Virus record (IMG/VR): IMGVR_UViG_3300023174_000534 | Location: 1 to 27,791 of that record | Length of the DNA: 27,791 nucleotides | Direction: 5' to 3' (one strand) | Source: a virus | In this document: positions 20,170 to 27,765 of the stretch, piece by piece | Numbering within the stretch: the first letter of the stretch is position 1 | Layout: each line of letters begins with the position of its first letter | Translations under genes and position numbers: made by a program | The notes under the pieces: model-generated | What the model was told of the DNA's origin: nothing | The model's input: only the letters and a program-made list of their open reading frames with translations | The model's database searches: none

Positions 20170-20245
20170 TGGTGGCCAAGGTGGGATTTGAACCCACAAC
20201 ACACGGTTTTTGAAACCGTTGCCTCTGCCGTTGGGCTACTTGGCC
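20170..20245 (-). tRNA. tRNA-Leu(CAA), short variable arm
   Basis: Acceptor GGCCAAG/CTTGGCC, A73, encoded CCA. D-loop has GG. Anticodon stem ACGGT/ACCGT with loop TTCAAAA gives CAA. T-stem GTGGG/CCCAC with normal TTCAAAT loop. The variable region is only five bases, unlike bacterial tRNA-Leu. Confidence 0.88.
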
Positions 20246-22336: not shown

Positions 22337-22410
22337 TGGTGAGGAGTGAAGGTAACGCTCCTTCTTCTCTGGCGTGTCATGCCAGTGCATTGCTTCTATA
22401 CTAACTCCTC
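22337..22410 (-). tRNA. tRNA-Val(GAC), G55-type elbow
   Basis: Acceptor GAGGAGT/ACTCCTC, A73, CCA. D-stem GTAT/ATGC with loop AGAAGCA (no GG). Anticodon stem CTGGC/GCCAG, loop ATGACAC, anticodon GAC. T-stem GAAGG/CCTTC with loop AGCGTTA. The upstream small gene ends inside its acceptor region. Confidence 0.85.
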
Positions 22411-22571
22411 ATTTTATTGTTTTGCTCCGTTATTGCTTTTCTAATGCCCTCCACAAGAGCGTCAATATGTACATCAGATAGTTTTTTAACTATCTTACCG
22501 TGAAGTTTAAAATCTGCTTCTGCATCTGGTAGATTAATAGATGCTGTTACAAGTGTGCGAATTGGTTTCAT
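22401..22571 (-). CDS. small hypothetical protein, 56 aa
   Basis: Opens MKPIRTLVTASINLPD and ends NNKMRS. It is amphipathic, with a helical C-terminal half (HIDALVEGIRKAI). The stop codon TAG is made of tRNA-Val bases T8, A9 and G10, and the last two codons lie in the acceptor stem, a 10-base overlap. Same MKP-type start as the gene at 23225. Not recognised. Confidence 0.65.
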   Translation of the reverse strand: MKPIRTLVTASINLPDAEADFKLHGKIVKKLSDVHIDALVEGIRKAITEQNNKMRS

Positions 22572-22591
22572 AAAATAGATCAGGTGTTATA

Positions 22592-23032
22592 TTAACTCCT
22601 CATGTTCTTAATTGCGAAAACTGTTCTAAGAGTTTCATCTTTGCTTTTGAGCCAACCAGGAATGCTAATTTTGCATAAATCTGCAATGCCTGTTACAGCA
22701 AACTCATCTGCAAAGTCAACATCAGTTGCACTAAACTCACTGATGTGAGTGCTGCTTATCTCACTGTTGGGAAGCCATTTTTCTGGACCCAGTGCATATT
22801 CGTATTTGTAACTGAATCCGTCTTTCTTCTTTTTGACAACCAATTGATACAAAGTAGCTTTTTTTGTCTTTTGAAGCTCTACTCCATATACATCATAAGT
22901 TGTTTTAACTCCATTATAGTATCTAGGATTTGGTGCTGTGGATCCACAATTGCTATACAGTGGTTCATCTTCTGGATTTTCAGAATATAAATCAAAGCCG
23001 TTAATATGGTCGCAGAAAAATGAATCAAACAT
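22592..23032 (-). CDS. hypothetical protein, 146 aa
   Basis: Opens MFDSFFCDHINGFDLYS. Rich in Tyr and Lys with beta-strand alternation in the middle, no recognised domain. Its ATG overlaps the stop of the Cys-rich gene by eight bases, and the next small gene starts 20 bases on, so three genes (23225-22401) form one unit leading into tRNA-Val. Confidence 0.65.
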   Translation of the reverse strand: MFDSFFCDHINGFDLYSENPEDEPLYSNCGSTAPNPRYYNGVKTTYDVYGVELQKTKKATLYQLVVKKKKDGFSYKYEYALGPEKWLPNSEISSTHISEFSATDVDFADEFAVTGIADLCKISIPGWLKSKDETLRTVFAIKNMRS

Positions 23033-23225
23033 TGTTTTTAATTTTGCTGTAGATTGATTGAAGATCTTTTATACTTGTTATAACTTCAGGAGGTGTATTG
23101 TAATATTCTACTTTAAGTACTTTACCTGCAGCTGTAGAAGGTGTAGATTCATAGCAGCTGCAATATCCGCTTAGGTGTTGTGTTGTCCTTTTGCAAAAAT
23201 TGCAATACTCGTATGTTGGTTTCAT
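23025..23225 (-). CDS. small zinc-ribbon-like protein, 66 aa
   Basis: The N-terminal third is Cys/His-rich: YEYCNFCKRTTQHLSGYCSC, i.e. CxxC followed by H and CxC, a likely single zinc site. The remainder is an ordinary soluble tail. It may bind nucleic acid or protein. First of three overlapping genes. Confidence 0.65.
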   Translation of the reverse strand: MKPTYEYCNFCKRTTQHLSGYCSCYESTPSTAAGKVLKVEYYNTPPEVITSIKDLQSIYSKIKNNV

Positions 23226-23245
23226 AAAATGATCTTTTATTTAGA

Positions 23246-23253
23246 TATAAATA
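23246..23253 (+). promoter_or_regulatory. late promoter box TATAAATA, 5 nt before ATG 23259
   Basis: Perfect octamer on the plus strand, spacer atgat. It points into two tiny membrane-peptide genes in an otherwise minus-strand region. Confidence 0.7.
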
Positions 23254-23258
23254 ATGAT

Positions 23259-23345
23259 ATGAACTTTCTTGAAATGCTCCACATGTTTCTAGGATTTTTT
23301 TGCATTGCTGCAATCTTCATAGCTATAGCAAAGTTTTTGCCTTAG
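23259..23345 (+). CDS. tiny single-span membrane peptide, 28 aa
   Basis: MNFLEMLHM followed by one hydrophobic span, FLGFFCIAAIFIAIAKFL. Below usual gene-finding limits, but it has a perfect late box at the standard five-base spacing. Possible lysis accessory or membrane effector. Only composition and promoter support it. Confidence 0.5.
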   Translation: MNFLEMLHMFLGFFCIAAIFIAIAKFLP

Positions 23346-23362
23346 TTTTGAATGCAGCTCCT

Positions 23363-23437
23363 ATGGACTACTTACTTATAATTTCTGGAATTTTTGGCAT
23401 TGCGTTAGGTCTTTACCTCATTGCAACAGCCAGATAA
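23363..23437 (+). CDS. tiny single-span membrane peptide, 24 aa
   Basis: MDYLLIISGIFGIALGLYLI plus a short ATAR tail, a single transmembrane helix with a GxxxAxG pattern. It starts 18 bases after the first peptide and its stop abuts the stop of the minus-strand gene at 23438. Probably co-transcribed with the first peptide. Confidence 0.45.
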   Translation: MDYLLIISGIFGIALGLYLIATAR

Positions 23438-23680
23438 TCATATATCGAGGAAACCTTCAGCCTTGAGATATTTTTCAACTTTCATAAAGAAATCAACGTC
23501 TTGCAATGAGGGGTAATCCACACACTCTTTAGAAATATCACTACCCTCAAAATCTAAGGATGCAATGTATTGTAGTGTTAAATTTAAATTTGCTCTACAT
23601 TTTCGTCCATGAAAATCAAACACTATGATTCTTCGCAAACATTTGTTGAGCATTTGTTGTAATGTTTCTTCTTGTTTCAT
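23438..23680 (-). CDS. hypothetical protein, 80 aa
   Basis: The ATG at 23680 is chosen because the longer in-frame start at 23722 lies inside tRNA-Leu. Opens MKQEETLQQMLNKCLRR and is charged, with FDFHGRKCRANLNL in the middle and a helical, acidic C-terminus. Not recognised. Confidence 0.65.
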   Translation of the reverse strand: MKQEETLQQMLNKCLRRIIVFDFHGRKCRANLNLTLQYIASLDFEGSDISKECVDYPSLQDVDFFMKVEKYLKAEGFLDI

Positions 23681-23689
23681 GTGGTAAAT

Positions 23690-23766
23690 TGGTACCCTGA
23701 GTCGGATTCGAACCGACAACACACGGATCTTAAATCCGATGCATCTACCAATTGTGCTACCAGGGC
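23690..23766 (-). tRNA. tRNA-Leu(UAA), short variable arm
   Basis: Acceptor GCCCTGG/TCAGGGT, A73, CCA. D-loop with GG. Anticodon loop TTTAAGA gives TAA. The variable region GTGTT is identical to that of tRNA-Leu(CAA) at 20170, so the two are paralogues. T-loop TTCGAAT. Confidence 0.88.
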
Positions 23767-23772
23767 ATTAAA

Positions 23773-23847
23773 TGGTTCTCTTGGATGGTAATGCTCCATC
23801 TTAGATCGCTTCACAGGCGATGACATTACTTTTATGATACGAAGAGA
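23773..23847 (-). tRNA. tRNA-His(GUG), G55-type elbow
   Basis: Acceptor TCTCTT/AAGAGA with a C-C mismatch at the seventh pair, A73, CCA. Anticodon stem ATCGC/GCGAT, loop CTGTGAA, anticodon GTG. D-arm CAT/ATG with AAAAGTA. T-stem GATGG/CCATC, loop AGCATTA. The base at -1 is A rather than G. Confidence 0.8.
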
Positions 23848-23856
23848 TTTTGAAAG

Positions 23857-23946
23857 TGGTACTGCTGATAGGACTCGAACCTACATAGACTATTTCCATT
23901 ACACTGATTTAAGTCACTGCTTAGAAGGCAGTTGTGTTACAGCAGC
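23857..23946 (-). tRNA. atypical tRNA, probably Arg(UCU), with rearranged D-arm/variable region
   Basis: Acceptor GCTGCTG/CAGCAGT, A73, CCA. A perfect anticodon arm ACTGC/GCAGT with loop CTTCTAA (TCT) begins only seven bases after the acceptor, leaving no D-arm. A 31-base stretch with a D-loop-like aatgg follows before the T-stem GTAGG/CCTAT. ACAC before the anticodon arm can pair with GTGT after it. Confidence 0.65.
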
Positions 23947-24000
23947 TTTTATTAACAAATACAATATAGATGATGTATATTAAGCAATCAACTGAAATTT

Positions 24001-24075
24001 TGGAGGCCATTGTGAGAATTGAACTCACCTAAAGAGTTTTGCAGACTCCTGTCCACGCCAGCTGACTCAATGGCC
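24001..24075 (-). tRNA. tRNA-Cys(GCA)
   Basis: Acceptor GGCCATT/AATGGCC, T73 (the Cys discriminator), CCA. Anticodon stem GGAGT/ACTCT, loop CTGCAAA. T-stem GTGAG/CTCAC, loop TTCAATT. D-loop with GG. Confidence 0.92.
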
Positions 24076-24089
24076 ATTTGAAAATTATT

Positions 24090-24123
24090 GGCACTCTACT
24101 GAGTAGCAAATTCAGTGAGTGCC
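24090..24123. other. 12-bp bulged hairpin beside tRNA-Cys
   Basis: GGCACTC plus ACTGA pairs with TCAGT plus GAGTGCC, one bulged base, 9-base loop. No T-run follows directly, so a terminator is doubtful. It may be a processing signal or part of the adjacent structured element. Confidence 0.5.
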
Positions 24124-24228
24124 TCAGAAACCATTCAATGAGATTGTGCAAGCGCTCTCATCCCAGAGCCGTCAAAGGTACTCGGCTTGCAAGATCGACC
24201 TTTGTGTTGCGGTTAGTTGAATGTTCTG
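24124..24228. ncRNA. candidate pseudoknotted structured RNA
   Basis: No gene fits. An outer helix (CAGAA + CATTCAA with TTGAATG + TTCTG, 12 bp with a 2-base bulge) encloses two 7-bp helices that cross: TGCAAGC 24147-24153 with 24185-24191, and CAAAGGT 24173-24179 with 24198-24204. A GCTCT/AGAGC hairpin (24154-24158, 24165-24169) sits directly beside the first. The strand is not determined; neighbours are minus. It does not follow the HDV-like order of helices. Confidence 0.6.
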
Positions 24229-24234
24229 AAATTG

Positions 24235-24531
24235 TTAATACAGCTCAGGAAAGAATCCGTAACCATATGTGCTAAGATTGTCAAAGAGCTTCTCTAGCAC
24301 AGCAGCCTCTTCATTAGTGATTTCTGATGCCTTAAAATCACTAATGAATTCGTCAAAATCACTGTACTCAATTTCTTCATTGGTACCTACATAATAGCTG
24401 TAGCATTCTTCCTTGAAATGCTTCTTGAAATCCTGTTGGTATTTTTCCCATTGTTCATTGGTAAGCACTTTGAAGCCGTCAATGTCCATTTCATCTGCCC
24501 AATTGCTGTCGTATTTTACTAGTAGTTTCAT
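24235..24531 (-). CDS. hypothetical acidic protein, 98 aa
   Basis: Opens MKLLVKYDSNWADEMDIDGF and is very acidic (NEEIEYSDFDEFISDF), the composition of phage DNA-mimic or inhibitor proteins, though no specific family is recognised. Its start region overlaps the end of the zinc-finger endonuclease by 41 bases. It stops a few bases before the structured element. Confidence 0.65.
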   Translation of the reverse strand: MKLLVKYDSNWADEMDIDGFKVLTNEQWEKYQQDFKKHFKEECYSYYVGTNEEIEYSDFDEFISDFKASEITNEEAAVLEKLFDNLSTYGYGFFPELY

Positions 24532-25369
24532 GTTTGATGTTTAAAATTTGTTGTTTACATTCATTTACGTTACCTACAATTAATATAACTGATTGTTTAA
24601 TAAAATCAAGTTTTTCTTTATCTTGTTTCTGCTTATAAGGATTTTTAGGATCAACGTAAATATTGAGATCTTCGAGAAAAAAGTCCGGATAATATCTTCT
24701 TTGTTTACCATTTGAATCAATCCAATGCAGTAGATGCTTTCTTGATCTTGACCATTTGATTTGATGTTCATCTAAAAACTTTGCAATTTCTACTTCCCAA
24801 GAAGAGTCAAAACTCACATCATTATAAGTATATCTTTTGTAATTTGTTTCACCACCACAGTTTGGGTTTTGTGTTGAGAGTTTGGAGAGTAACTTTGATG
24901 TACATTTTTTGCTACATGTTTTAACATATCTACAATGATGTATAAATTTGTTTTCACACACTACACATTTTAACTCAACTGGTTTTGATCTACTTGATTT
25001 TATTGCACGGCTTTTATAGCAAGTTGTGCAGAATTTTTTTGTGCATGTAGTAGATGTTATGTTTACACCACATTGTAAGCATAATGATGTTTTTAATTTT
25101 AATTGTCTGTTTACATTGTTAGTTTTAGCACTGCATGAGCTGCTGCAAAAAAGCTCCTGTATTTTTGTTAAAGGTGTACCACAACCAATACAAAATCTTA
25201 AATTAATTGGATTTAAATGGCACAATGCTTCATGTTCTTCTACATGACAAGCAAGTGGCTTGTTACAAAACTTGCATTCTTTTATAGATGCTTTATGTTT
25301 CCATCTAACGTGATTAGAATATACTCTACCATTTTCAAATTGTTCACCACAAATACTACATTGTTTCAT
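24491..25369 (-). CDS. zinc-finger PD-(D/E)XK homing endonuclease
   Basis: 292 residues from the ATG at 25369, set five bases after an ATAAATA box; a longer reading would run through two tRNAs. The N-terminal ~190 residues hold about five Cys/His zinc modules (CSICGEQF...H...H, CKFCNKPL, CIGCGTPL, CLQCGVNI, CVVCENKF). The C-terminal nuclease has SFDSSWEVEIAKFL, RSRKHLLHW, RRYYPDFFLEDLNIYVDPKN, i.e. the YPDF...DxK pattern of Vsr/PD-(D/E)XK-like phage homing enzymes. It is A/T-rich and sits inside the tRNA array, like an invader. Confidence 0.82.
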   Translation of the reverse strand: MKQCSICGEQFENGRVYSNHVRWKHKASIKECKFCNKPLACHVEEHEALCHLNPINLRFCIGCGTPLTKIQELFCSSSCSAKTNNVNRQLKLKTSLCLQCGVNITSTTCTKKFCTTCYKSRAIKSSRSKPVELKCVVCENKFIHHCRYVKTCSKKCTSKLLSKLSTQNPNCGGETNYKRYTYNDVSFDSSWEVEIAKFLDEHQIKWSRSRKHLLHWIDSNGKQRRYYPDFFLEDLNIYVDPKNPYKQKQDKEKLDFIKQSVILIVGNVNECKQQILNIKHETTSKIRQQLGR

Positions 25370-25374
25370 ACATA

Positions 25375-25381
25375 TATTTAT
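25375..25381 (-). promoter_or_regulatory. late promoter box ATAAATA, 5 nt before ATG 25369
   Basis: Minus-strand box, spacer tatgt. It overlaps the last base of tRNA-Ala. Confidence 0.6.
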
Positions 25382-25460
25382 GGTGGAGCATATCGGATTC
25401 GAACCGATCTGTTTTTCCGGTTTGCAAAACCAGCGACCACGCCAAGCAGTCCTATGCCCC
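25381..25460 (-). tRNA. tRNA-Ala(UGC)
   Basis: Acceptor GGGGCAT/ATGCTCC contains the G3-U70 pair that marks alanine tRNAs; A73, CCA. Anticodon stem CTGGT/ACCGG, loop TTTGCAA. T-loop TTCGAAT, D-loop with GG, 8-base variable region. Confidence 0.92.
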
Positions 25461-25466
25461 ATGAAA

Positions 25467-25541
25467 TGGTACCCGAAGTAGGATTCAAACCTACAACAAT
25501 CCGCGTGTAGGGCGGGCGCTCTATCGTTGAGCTATTCGGGC
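25467..25541 (-). tRNA. tRNA-Val(UAC), C33 and A19-U56 variant
   Basis: Acceptor GCCCGAA/TTCGGGT, A73, CCA. D-arm GCTC/GAGC with loop AACGATA. Anticodon loop CCTACAC: TAC, with C instead of T33. T-stem GTAGG/CCTAC, loop TTTGAAT, so 56 is T while D-loop 19 is A. Confidence 0.88.
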
Positions 25542-25549
25542 ATTGAAAT

Positions 25550-25625
25550 TGATGCAGAGGTGGGATTTGCACCGCACGATCTCTTGGTTATGAGCCAAGC
25601 GACTTAACTTCTTGTCCACTCTGCA
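25550..25625 (-). tRNA. tRNA with CAU anticodon, CCA altered to TCA
   Basis: Acceptor TGCAGAG/CTCTGCA. Anticodon stem CTTGG/CCAAG, loop CTCATAA. D-arm GAC/GTC with loop AAGAAGTTAA. T-arm GTG(C)GG with CCCAC and a bulged C, loop TGCAAAT. The 3' end reads TCA instead of CCA. Met, or Ile after lysidine modification. Possibly degenerating. Confidence 0.75.
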
Positions 25626-25634
25626 ATTTGAAAT

Positions 25635-25723
25635 TGGCTCCCCCTCGACGTTACGATCGTCGCTGTACCTTACAAGGGCCTCCTGGTTAACAGCCAAGCG
25701 CTCTACCACTGAGCTAAGGGGGA
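25635..25723 (-). tRNA. tRNA-Asn(GUU) with expanded variable region
   Basis: Acceptor TCCCCCT/AGGGGGA, G73, CCA. Anticodon stem CTTGG/CCAGG, loop CTGTTAA. About 19 bases with a CCTT/AAGG mini-hairpin precede the T-stem CGACG/CGTCG, whose loop is ATCGTAA. The upstream gene ends inside its 5' end. Confidence 0.85.
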
Positions 25724-26061
25724 TTTTTATCTGCAACAATATATATTCTGTCTAATTGTTGTTCAACTAAAATTTTGTTTAAATCTTCTCTGTATATTTT
25801 ACACAATGCAAAAACTCTATCGAGCATTCTATTTGCATTGGTAATCATCTTATGTGACTCAAAGCTGTAGATGCAATCATGAACTCGATGCATTCTAATA
25901 CACCCAAATTCAGTTGCCTCGTTATCGAGTTTTTCAAAAAGTTCTTCAATTGATTTAAGACGACCCCAATCTAGAGAATAAGGAATTCCTGTAAACTTAC
26001 ACTGATGCTCAACTATCTCTTTGATTTTACTTTTATTGATAACGAAGATTGGTTGTTTCAT
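25714..26061 (-). CDS. hypothetical protein, 115 aa
   Basis: Opens MKQPIFVINKSKIKEIVEH and is a mixed alpha/beta soluble protein with no recognised domain (FGCIRMHRVHDCIYSF in the centre). Its final codons AAT-CCC-CCT-TAG lie in tRNA-Asn, and the stop is tRNA bases T8, A9 and G10. Located between two tRNA genes. Confidence 0.65.
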   Translation of the reverse strand: MKQPIFVINKSKIKEIVEHQCKFTGIPYSLDWGRLKSIEELFEKLDNEATEFGCIRMHRVHDCIYSFESHKMITNANRMLDRVFALCKIYREDLNKILVEQQLDRIYIVADKNPP

Positions 26062-26066
26062 AAAAT

Positions 26067-26140
26067 TGGACGCAGGTCGGGGATTGCACCGCGCTCTCCG
26101 GGTTATGAGCCCAGAATGGTCACTAGACCACTTACCTGCA
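26067..26140 (-). tRNA. tRNA with CAU anticodon, initiator-like anticodon stem
   Basis: Acceptor TGCAGGT/ACCTGCG with a weak T1-G72 pair, T73, CCA. Anticodon stem CTGGG/CCCGG has three G-C pairs next to the loop CTCATAA, as in initiator tRNAs. D-arm loop has TAGT, no GG. T-loop TGCAATC with a bulged C in the stem. Confidence 0.8.
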
Positions 26141-26149
26141 ATTTGAAAT

Positions 26150-26227
26150 TGGCAGAGCCGATGGGTGCTGCCCCCACTCTATATCTCGCTCGACAGGCGA
26201 GTGTCAATGCTGTTTGACTTCGGCTCT
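26150..26227 (-). tRNA. tRNA-Asp(GUC), unusual elbow
   Basis: Acceptor AGAGCCG/CGGCTCT, G73, CCA. D-stem GTCA/TGAC, loop AACAGCAT. Anticodon stem CTCGC/GCGAG, loop CTGTCGA. T-stem GTGGG/CCCAT with loop GGCAGCA. Confidence 0.87.
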
Positions 26228-26236
26228 ATTTGAAAT

Positions 26237-26315
26237 TGGCATCCCCACCCGGGGTCGAACCGGGTATACAACCTTGAAAGAGTTGTGTGATAACCTACCG
26301 TTCACTACAGGGACG
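26237..26315 (-). tRNA. tRNA-Glu(UUC)
   Basis: Acceptor CGTCCCT/GGGGATG, G73, CCA. Anticodon stem CAACT/GGTTG, loop CTTTCAA. D-loop with GG. T-stem CCCGG/CCGGG, loop TTCGACC. Confidence 0.92.
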
Positions 26316-26416
26316 TTTAAATTTTACTATCAAAGATCTTTGTTGTTTCTTATCAACACCAACACTATGGCGTCTTCTATGAAACAATCAACTGTGTTTC
26401 CTACTTTTTTTGAAAT

Positions 26417-26490
26417 TGGTCGCTCCCGTGGGGATTGCACCCACTTAACACCGCTTATGAAACGGTCCGAGATCCTTACCTCCCGAGAGC
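26417..26490 (-). tRNA. third tRNA with CAU anticodon
   Basis: Acceptor GCTCTCG/CGGGAGC, A73, CCA. Anticodon stem ACCGT/GCGGT, loop TTCATAA. D-arm GAG/CTC with GTAAGGAT. T-stem GTGGG/CCCAC, loop TGCAATC. Positions 8-9 read GG rather than T8. Confidence 0.83.
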
Positions 26491-26501
26491 ATTTTGAAAA
26501 T

Positions 26502-26576
26502 TGGCTACCCTCCCTGGATTCGAACCAGGACTACCTGAGTCAAAGTCAGGTGTGTTAACCATTACACTAGAGGGTA
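26502..26576 (-). tRNA. tRNA-Gln(UUG)
   Basis: Acceptor TACCCTC/GAGGGTA with the U1-A72 pair typical for Gln, G73, CCA. Anticodon stem CCTGA/TCAGG, loop CTTTGAC. D-loop with GG, T-loop TTCGAAT. Confidence 0.93.
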
Positions 26577-26582
26577 ATAAAA

Positions 26583-26658
26583 TGGAGCTCCGTGAGGGAC
26601 TTGCACCCCCTGTCTGCTCTTTACAAGAGAGCCGCATCACTATATCTGCTTACGGAGC
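26583..26658 (-). tRNA. tRNA-Thr(UGU), G55-type elbow
   Basis: Acceptor GCTCCGT/ACGGAGC, T73, CCA. D-arm GCA/TGC with GATATAGTGA. Anticodon stem GCTCT/AGAGC, loop CTTGTAA. T-stem GGGGG/CCCTC, loop TGCAAGT. Confidence 0.88.
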
Positions 26659-26665
26659 ATTAAAT

Positions 26666-26744
26666 TGGTGCTTCAGGTGGTAGTTGCAACCACACGAATA
26701 TTCTGGTTAAGAGCCAGCTGCCCGTCTACTGTAGCTTCTGAAGC
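26666..26744 (-). tRNA. tRNA-Lys(CUU), G55-type elbow
   Basis: Acceptor GCTTCAG/CTGAAGC, A73, CCA. Anticodon loop CTCTTAA. D-loop ACAGTAGACG. T-stem GTGGT/ACCAC, loop TGCAACT. Close paralogue of tRNA-Lys(UUU) at 27274. Confidence 0.88.
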
Positions 26745-26754
26745 ATGTTGAAAT

Positions 26755-27010
26755 TGGCTGTGACAGCACGACTCGAACGTGCGATTCCGGCTTCAAAACG
26801 CATATGCTGGGTGCCGATGTGTTTCCAATGAACCCCTTCATTGCTATCTTCTAATCTATCTCAATGTTTCAATCAATTCAGCCTTGTCCGGCACTACCCC
26901 GGCTCGATGTTGGTTTTAAAGCCTATGCGTTTGATACCTACTATGATCTACTAAAATGCCTTCAATTAGCCCTTTGCAACTATCTCATTTACTATCTACA
27001 CTATATCACA
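26755..27010 (-). other. tRNA-like 3' end with distant 5' partner; intron-bearing tRNA or tmRNA-like RNA
   Basis: The 3' end (26755-26782) is a full T-arm GCACG/CGTGC with TTCGAGT, acceptor strand TGTCACA, G73 and CCA. No contiguous 5' half fits. A 7-bp partner TGTGATA lies at 27004-27010 with one G-U pair. Between them are a 10-bp long-range helix (26793-26803 with 26925-26934, one bulge), a CAATGAA/TTCATTG hairpin (26826-26843) and a CCGG/CCGG hairpin (26888-26902). No gene is seen here. Anticodon not identified; no tmRNA tag frame recognised. Confidence 0.45.
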
Positions 27011-27019
27011 ATCTAAAAA

Positions 27020-27093
27020 TGGCACGGAGTAAAGGAATCGAACCCTTGTATGCGATTTTGGAGACCGCCGTTCTACCATTGAACTAACTCCGT
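27020..27093 (-). tRNA. tRNA-Trp(CCA)
   Basis: Acceptor ACGGAGT/ACTCCGT, G73, CCA. D-arm GTTC/GAAC with GG. Anticodon stem GCGGT/ATCGC, loop CTCCAAA. T-loop TTCGATT. Confidence 0.93.
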
Positions 27094-27102
27094 ATTTGAA
27101 AA

Positions 27103-27178
27103 TGGTACCCTATGGAGGAATTGAACCTACCACCTCTCAGTTCGTAGCCGAGTGTTCTGTCCGTTATACTAATAGGGC
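27103..27178 (-). tRNA. tRNA-Arg(ACG)
   Basis: Acceptor GCCCTAT/ATAGGGT, A73, CCA. Anticodon stem CTCGG/CTGAG, loop CTACGAA; A34 would need conversion to inosine by host TadA. D-loop with GG. T-loop TTCAATT, with one mismatch in the T-stem. Confidence 0.9.
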
Positions 27179-27187
27179 ATTTGAAAT

Positions 27188-27264
27188 TGGTACCTCGAGA
27201 GGGATTCGAACCCTCAATCTTCAGAGTCTAAATCTGACACAATTACCAGTTATGCTACCGAGGC
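27188..27264 (-). tRNA. tRNA-Leu(UAG), short variable arm
   Basis: Acceptor GCCTCGG/TCGAGGT, A73, CCA. Anticodon stem TCAGA/TCTGA, loop TTTAGAC. Five-base variable region. D-loop with GG, T-loop TTCGAAT. Reads CUA codons, not stop codons. Confidence 0.88.
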
Positions 27265-27273
27265 ATTTGAAAT

Positions 27274-27352
27274 TGGTACTCCAGGAGGTAGTTGCAACCT
27301 CACGTATCATCCGCTTAAAAGGCGGCTACCCGTCTACTGTGGCTTCTGGAGT
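27274..27352 (-). tRNA. tRNA-Lys(UUU), G55-type elbow
   Basis: Acceptor ACTCCAG/CTGGAGT, A73, CCA. Anticodon CCGC/GCGG, loop CTTTTAA. D-loop ACAGTAGACG. T-stem GAGGT/ACCTC, loop TGCAACT. The upstream gene runs 27 bases into it. Confidence 0.88.
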
Positions 27353-27583
27353 ATTTAAATTATTTGGCCAGGGCTTTTTCGCCCATGCATGATAATAAGC
27401 TGTGTGCTCTCTAGCTTCAACTATTATCTTTTGAATTTCTTCATCTTGTGGATTCCAATCGCCACTCTCTTCTGACAAGAGTGCAATTGCATAATCCAAA
27501 TGACTTTGTGCTGAACAAGGAGCATCATCTTGCTTGAGGCAAAAATTTGCAATGTGAACTAATGCTTGTTGTTGTTTAGTCAT
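27326..27583 (-). CDS. hypothetical protein, 85 aa, ending inside tRNA-Lys
   Basis: Opens MTKQQQALVHIANFCLKQ, helical, with SEESGDWNPQDEEIQKII and a final NTPEATVDG encoded by the 5' part of tRNA-Lys. The stop TAG lies in the tRNA D-arm region. Length and composition suggest a real gene that lost its own stop when the tRNA was placed behind it. Not recognised. Confidence 0.6.
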   Translation of the reverse strand: MTKQQQALVHIANFCLKQDDAPCSAQSHLDYAIALLSEESGDWNPQDEEIQKIIVEAREHTAYYHAWAKKPWPNNLNTPEATVDG

Positions 27584-27594
27584 GTTATTGAAAT

Positions 27595-27678
27595 TGGTAG
27601 CTCAGAAGGGAGTTGCACCCTCAAGGATCACCGATTTTAAGTCGGGCCATTCTGCTGTTTCTGGTTATCCACTGAGCC
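27595..27678 (-). tRNA. tRNA-Leu(UAA), second type, enlarged D region
   Basis: Acceptor GGCTCAG/CTGAGCT, A73, CCA. Anticodon loop CTTAAAA on stem CCGA/TCGG. About 25 bases replace the usual 19 before the anticodon stem. Variable region GATCCTT, whose ATCC can pair with GGAT of the D region. T-loop TGCAACT. Confidence 0.85.
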
Positions 27679-27681
27679 ATT

Positions 27682-27765
27682 TGGTAGCCTCGGAGGGAGT
27701 TGCACCCTCAAGGATCATCGCTTTTGAGGCGAGCCGTTCTGCTGTTTCCGGTTATCCACAAGGCC
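27682..27765 (-). tRNA. tRNA-Leu(CAA), second type, enlarged D region
   Basis: Near-identical in design to the preceding gene: acceptor GGCCTTG/CGAGGCT, A73, CCA; anticodon stem CTCGC/GCGAT, loop CTCAAAA; variable GATCCTT; T-loop TGCAACT. A tandem duplicate with a changed anticodon. Confidence 0.85.

Follow-up and report, generated by a model that had tools for sequence, protein, structure and literature searches.

Introduction

U55 of the tRNA T-loop is the site at which TruB, among the most widely distributed of RNA-modifying enzymes, makes pseudouridine, and the exposed 19–56 Watson–Crick pair is read by the ribosome, RNase P and RNase Z. In the normal elbow, residue 18 inserts between residues 57 and 58 and contacts U55, while the 19–56 pair gives a flat face that the ribosome and other partners recognise, and pseudouridine-55 (Ψ55) has been described as universally conserved (PMC4810234). 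Here, we describe eleven tRNA genes, all on the minus strand between positions 22337 and 27765 of IMG/VR virus record IMGVR_UViG_3300023174_000534, in which U55 is replaced by G55 and the D-loop contains AG. The whole 27.8-kb stretch is referred to below as the window.

The closest bacterial case is the non-proteinogenic (cell-wall) tRNA-Gly of Staphylococcus aureus, in which we take the T-loop to contain UGC as well. It, too, is a natural bacterial tRNA without G18–G19 (PMC4052509), but its residues 18–19 are UU or CU and it has weak EF-Tu pairs, whereas the phage genes have A18–G19 and serve many amino acids. Eukaryotic tRNA-Ala with A54/A58 and R15/A48 offers a natural case of tertiary elbow pairs changing in concert (PMC7566577); there, however, the 54–58 and 15–48 pairs change rather than 18–55, only alanine is concerned, and the form is not seen in bacteria or archaea. 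These two are the nearest natural precedents, and neither is described as swapping 18–55 in step. Phage tRNAs with anticodon-loop changes (PMC10264068) likewise differ from those of the host at a functional site, but the change lies outside the elbow and its purpose has been proposed. A first-pass annotation of the window had known of no described class of this kind, and we found no description of an A18–G55 tRNA in the literature searched, subscription work on selected suppressor tRNAs aside.

With the canonical bacterial elongator tRNA, the phage genes share the cloverleaf, U33, a purine at position 37, G19–C56, CCA and the isotype discriminator base. They differ from it in having A18–G55 in place of G18–U55 and, in many cases, A–U or G–G in place of U54–A58; consequently, they cannot take Ψ55 and often not T54.

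Results

Residues 18 and 55 change together

Genes were collected from about 375 loci, nearly all viral, which had been selected for G55 genes, so that the frequencies given here are not prevalences. The detector required acceptor, anticodon, T and D stems plus U33 and ignored the elbow bases; its score demands good stems, and decayed members are therefore under-sampled. After deduplication, at a slightly relaxed cut-off, there were 225 distinct G55–C56 genes covering 34 anticodons and 885 U55–C56 genes. Shuffled copies of 359 loci gave 23 candidates, none of which had GC at positions 55–56, against 227 with GC in the real loci.

The main statistics were restricted to D-loops of 7 nucleotides (nt), where the length fixes positions 18 and 19 (longer loops were assigned by motif), and genes found with a search pattern that imposed an AG D-loop were left out of the 18–55 counts. 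G18 was present in 231 of 232 U55 genes and A18 in 92 of 94 G55 genes; among seed-free genes, the figures were 153/154 and 38/38. Intermediates were limited to two G18/G55 genes, with no A18/U55, among the 326 clear cases. The mutual information between residues 18 and 55, a check set beforehand, was 0.816 of a possible 0.867 bits (n = 326), and the correlation first noticed in the window thus held in the larger set. Because kinship among phages inflates raw counts, clustered and permuted figures were also used: with representatives clustered at 70% identity within each anticodon, the association remained (Fisher p = 2e-46). In genes retrieved by patterns without a constraint on the D-loop, most of them CAT, 7-nt loops had A18–G19 in 44 of 45; canonical CAT genes of the same loop length had GG in 13 of 14. 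The covariation supports the putative A18–G55 contact, with 19–56 kept, that had been suggested from the window.

Neighbouring elbow pairs varied as well. The 19–56 pair changed in step, U56 occurring with A19 and A56 with U19; A–U, U–A and C–G pairs were all seen, and 54–58 likewise varied in step as U–A, A–U, G–G or C–A. U54 was retained in 42 and lost in 65 of 107 seed-free G55 genes, compared to 831 and 51 of 882 U55 genes. All 107 had a purine at position 57, and only two combined A54 with A58. Two unannotated genes in named phages show other combinations: a tRNA-Cys of Enterobacter phage phi63_307 (L368:8587–8663) has A18–C19 with G55–G56, both elbow pairs being changed, and a CAT tRNA of Escherichia phage JohannJBalmer (L367:259–334) has G18–A19, U55–U56 and A54..U58.

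The eleven genes of the window

The window genes were read from their stems by hand and by script, and T-loops are quoted as positions 54–60. G55–C56 was present in all eleven genes named by the first-pass annotation and AG was found in every D-loop, as AGG in the CAT gene at 26417. Three kinds of T-loop, rather than one, were distinguished: U54..A58 (TGCAANN), A54..U58 (AGCRTTA) and G54..G58 (GGCAGCA); in two of these subtypes, U54 and A58 are thus also replaced.

The A54..U58 kind is represented by tRNA-Val(GAC) (22337..22410; T-loop AGCGTTA, D-loop AGAAGCA, giving A18–G19) and tRNA-His(GTG) (23773..23847; AGCATTA, D-loop with AAGTA). The valine gene is conserved in a related contig, where the neighbouring protein is 95% identical, with pair-preserving changes and identical D- and T-loops. 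The histidine gene, which ARAGORN misses, has A73 and lacks G-1/C73. The G54..G58 kind is tRNA-Asp(GTC) (26150..26227), with G54–G55–C56 and G58 (GGCAGCA), D-loop AACAGCAT and G73, which both ARAGORN and Rfam miss.

The remaining genes have U54. Three of them carry a CAT anticodon: 25551..25625 (TGCAAAT, D-loop with AAGTTA) has a C–C mismatch in the T-stem and a 3′ end that reads TCA; 26067..26140 (TGCAAT, a short loop; D-loop CTAGTG) has a GGG/CCC anticodon stem and T1–G72 and may be initiator-like; and 26417..26491 (TGCAATC, D-loop with AAGGA) is missed by ARAGORN. tRNA-Thr(TGT) (26583..26658) has TGCAAGT and D-loop ATATAGTGA. tRNA-Lys(CTT) (26666..26744) and tRNA-Lys(TTT) (27274..27352) both have TGCAACT and a D-loop with CAGTA, are both missed by ARAGORN, and differ from each other by paired changes. 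The two second-type leucine genes also have TGCAACT. tRNA-Leu(TAA) (27595..27678) has the D-hairpin CCA-GAAACAGCAGAA-TGG and an unusual core, and its Rfam score of 28.3 bits is slightly below the cut-off; in tRNA-Leu(CAA) (27682..27765) the hairpin is CCG-GAAACAGCAGAA-CGG, covarying with that of the former. The anticodons of these two genes duplicate those of U55 leucine genes at 23690 and 20170, and in both a further GGAT/ATCC helix may enclose the D and anticodon arms.

Function and origin of the G55 genes

Acceptor, anticodon and T stems and U33, all of which the detector required, are accompanied by a purine at position 37, and the shuffle control argues against chance. The discriminator was the majority base of canonical tRNAs with the same anticodon in 81% of cases, compared to 85% for canonical genes themselves and a permuted mean of 50% (maximum 60%). 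Identity of the tRNA body to U55 tRNAs of the same anticodon was 0.480, against 0.421 when permuted (maximum 0.430), and outside the elbow the G55 tRNAs were closer to canonical tRNAs with their own anticodon than to G55 tRNAs with other anticodons. Since the bodies follow the anticodon rather than the elbow, a single-origin G55 family was rejected, and the swap arose many times independently.

Within 31 loci, only 4 anticodons were common to G55 and U55 genes where 26.6 were expected, and none of 2000 shuffles gave a number as low; the G55 genes thus replace missing canonical ones. Leucine, serine and arginine were depleted among G55 genes (8/236 vs. 97/744, p = 6e-6), which fits a leucylation reaction that reads G18:U55, as reported for E. 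coli (PMC9976931). On these features, the G55 genes look like functional, decoding tRNAs.

Distribution and detection

Three patterns were run over IMG/VR. Pattern 1, GGGTGCAANYCCC..CCA, covered the T-arm only and proved too loose, most of the 120 matches listed being due to chance; it nevertheless yielded two real, unrelated arrays with G55 tRNAs, all A18–G19. Pattern 2 combined an AG D-loop, which it thereby imposed, with an AGCRTWA T-loop, and pattern 3 a CAT anticodon with a TGCAA T-loop, leaving the D-loop free. Patterns 2 and 3 each matched at least about 120 IMG/VR stretches, and the pattern 2 matches listed were all of one 51-base span. In 257 Gb of bacterial and archaeal genomes, pattern 2 gave three matches, all in metagenome-assembled genomes, and pattern 3 gave one match in 798 bacterial genomes. 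As far as the two subtypes scanned in cells show, the G55 variant is mainly viral.

Among named phages, G55 genes occur in Erwinia phage Cronus, as a CAT tRNA at 66331–66405 of NC_055743, and in Vibrio phage 2.275.O (Cys), and Campylobacter phage CP81 has a CAT gene with G55 that is absent from the annotation of that record; T4 has no G55 tRNA. Pelagibacter phage HTVC008M has an unannotated tRNA-Gly(ACC) with A18–G55 just before the S21 gene (L197:1992–2065, about 91140–91213 of the record), which is the only tRNA detected in the 9.6-kb stretch examined.

Standard programs recover these genes poorly. ARAGORN calls four of the eleven window genes, and three score above the cut-off of Rfam RF00005. 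Among CCA-bearing genes, ARAGORN misses 98 of 201 with G55, compared to 13 of 745 with U55, including all 23 G55 genes of the G54 subtype. The tRNA repertoires of phages are therefore under-counted.

Other features of the window

The window encodes ribonucleotide reductase, ThyX, QueF, a head maturation protease and a baseplate-type protein, indicating that the source is a tailed phage, and its right end is the minus-strand tRNA array. Protein searches found a single close contig and otherwise linked the phage only weakly to Synechococcus phage DSL-LC02, and in a BLAST comparison of the array with named phages nothing aligned beyond short tRNA stretches.

The other tRNAs of the window had been described as canonical, with GG and TTC. 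U55 is indeed kept by all of them and GG by nearly all, but the description fails for tRNA-Val(TAC) (25467..25541, minus strand), in which U55–U56 occurs with G18–A19, a compensated 19–56 pair in the same array, and for tRNA-Arg(TCT) (23857–23946, minus strand), a U55 gene with a long variable arm that ARAGORN misses. In the latter, only seven bases separate the acceptor from the anticodon stem, leaving no D-arm. tRNA-Asn(GTT) (25635..25723, minus strand) has U55 with A54..U58 (ATCGTAA), and the 54–58 swap is therefore possible without G55. The leucine tRNAs at 20170–20245, 23690–23766 and 27188–27264 (minus strand) are 76–77 nt long, without the long variable arm expected in bacterial tRNA-Leu; the annotated leucine tRNAs of phage phi63_307 are equally short.

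A 256-nt RNA-like element at 26755–27010 (minus strand) has a tRNA-type acceptor (TGTGATA/TGTCACA), a T-arm (GCACG TTCGAGT CGTGC) and a GCCA end, and encloses a long GGCTTTAAAAC/GTTTTGAAGCC helix. ARAGORN found no transfer-messenger RNA (tmRNA) in it and there was no Rfam match; it is possibly an intron-bearing tRNA or a tmRNA-like RNA. Between the cysteine tRNA and the next open reading frame, at 24140–24230, there are nested inverted repeats with no recognisable tRNA.

Discussion

Our preferred reading, which we consider probable, is that the G55 genes encode decoding phage tRNAs in which the interior elbow pair would be A18–G55 instead of G18–U55 or G18–Ψ55, with the exposed 19–56 pair kept, a composite GNRA-like joint between the loops, and a benefit in being free of modification or going unrecognised. 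The interior contact would thus be exchanged while the exterior 19–56 face is retained.

For the joint itself, the best structural reading is a composite GNRA-like turn, in which G55–C56–R57 would form a GNR turn closed by A18, placed between residues 57 and 58, and the resulting loop would contain a sheared G–A pair. Lonepair triloops of the UGNRA (type R1) class, the T-loop motif of riboswitches and ribosomal RNA, commonly recruit an outside A that completes a composite GNRA loop (PMC2258182). The UGCAA subtype fits this motif, with an outside A predicted to complete the GNRA-like loop, and the purine at position 57 in all 107 seed-free G55 genes is consistent with the GNRA requirement. The phage motif differs from the type R1 triloop in being the D-loop/T-loop joint of a tRNA, and the consensus does not extend to its A54 and G54 subtypes.

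The nature of the benefit is the least certain part; our favoured guess is freedom from modification or escape from host factors that read the elbow. That G55 tRNAs could not be modified by TruB at position 55, as the first-pass annotation had pointed out, follows from the base: G55 cannot be pseudouridine, just as A18 cannot be Gm18. Such an elbow might fold without T54, Ψ55 and Gm18, or might escape host factors and tRNases that need U54–U55 or G18. No TruB gene was found in 20 phage records examined, some of which are fragments, and its absence, together with the loss of U54, would suit either a modification-independent elbow or one that is missed by elbow-reading tRNases.

Several points weigh against this reading. 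In the strict sense, only U54..A58 loops (41 of 107 seed-free genes) match the UGNRA consensus, and the A54..U58 and G54..G58 loops would need another closing pair; G54–G58 has reportedly been selected in artificial suppressor tRNAs. The mismatched T-stem, altered 3′ end and unusual D-arms of some window tRNAs could mean weak function. U55 tRNAs outnumber G55 tRNAs in almost every array, so that a factor aimed at elbows in general would be evaded only in part, and genuine G55 genes are few in the named phages examined.

The main rival retains the structural part and drops the adaptive one. Phage tRNAs may have fewer host enzymes to satisfy and may drift neutrally over equivalent elbows, A18–G55 being simply the commonest isofunctional neighbour and of no benefit. 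We give this relaxation of constraint a little less than even standing. It would account for the other in-step variation, at 19–56 (A–U, U–A, C–G) and 54–58 (A–U, G–G, C–A), for the intermixing of G55 and canonical genes within each array, and for the many independent origins. A direct route, however, would require two steps, and hardly any intermediates were seen; A18–G55 is far commoner than the 19–56 swaps, though the loci were selected for it; and the losses of U54 and U55 coincide, which selection or structural coupling could explain. Taken jointly, the adaptive readings stand slightly above drift, and the tests in this analysis do not separate the two.

Evasion of host defence, in which tRNases or sensors directed at T54–Ψ55 or the D-loop would act poorly on the altered T- and D-loops, is an unlikely explanation, although it has parallels. 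The CdiA-CT E479 tRNase cuts the T-loop between T and pseudouridine (PMC9086364), for the PARIS nuclease AriB a contact with D-loop residue U16 is predicted, and changing U16 impairs cleavage (PMC12409363), and anticodon-loop changes in phage tRNAs are thought to evade anticodon nucleases (PMC10264068). Yet the arrays still contain canonical tRNAs, the 34 anticodons with G55 do not evidently favour known nuclease targets, and no defence gene was linked.

That the elbow bars these tRNAs from translation and that they serve another purpose, as the staphylococcal non-proteinogenic tRNA-Gly without G18–G19 might suggest (PMC4052509), is very improbable given the range of anticodons, the retention of U33 (required by the detector), purine 37 and G19–C56, discriminators that match the anticodon, and the filling of anticodon gaps. 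Finally, stem mismatches or an altered 3′ end occur in a few of the genes, but decayed pseudogenes or chance folds are scarcely credible and were rejected on the shuffle control, the discriminators, the near-perfect 18–55 coupling and the complementarity with U55 genes.

Our preferred reading, of decoding tRNAs with an exchanged interior pair, can be carried further, at a strength that we would call tentative: phages may repeatedly have evolved a second natural elbow in most isoacceptors, often with a new 54–58 pair, which would fold and decode without the host's elbow modifications and escape reading by any host factor that checks G18, U54 or U55, and which would be essentially absent from cellular genomes.

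Standard tRNA annotation is blind to many G55 genes. Phage tRNAs can obey rules other than those of host tRNAs, and the concerted 18–55 swap over many isoacceptors offers a ready natural experiment on the role of this pair and of the elbow modifications.

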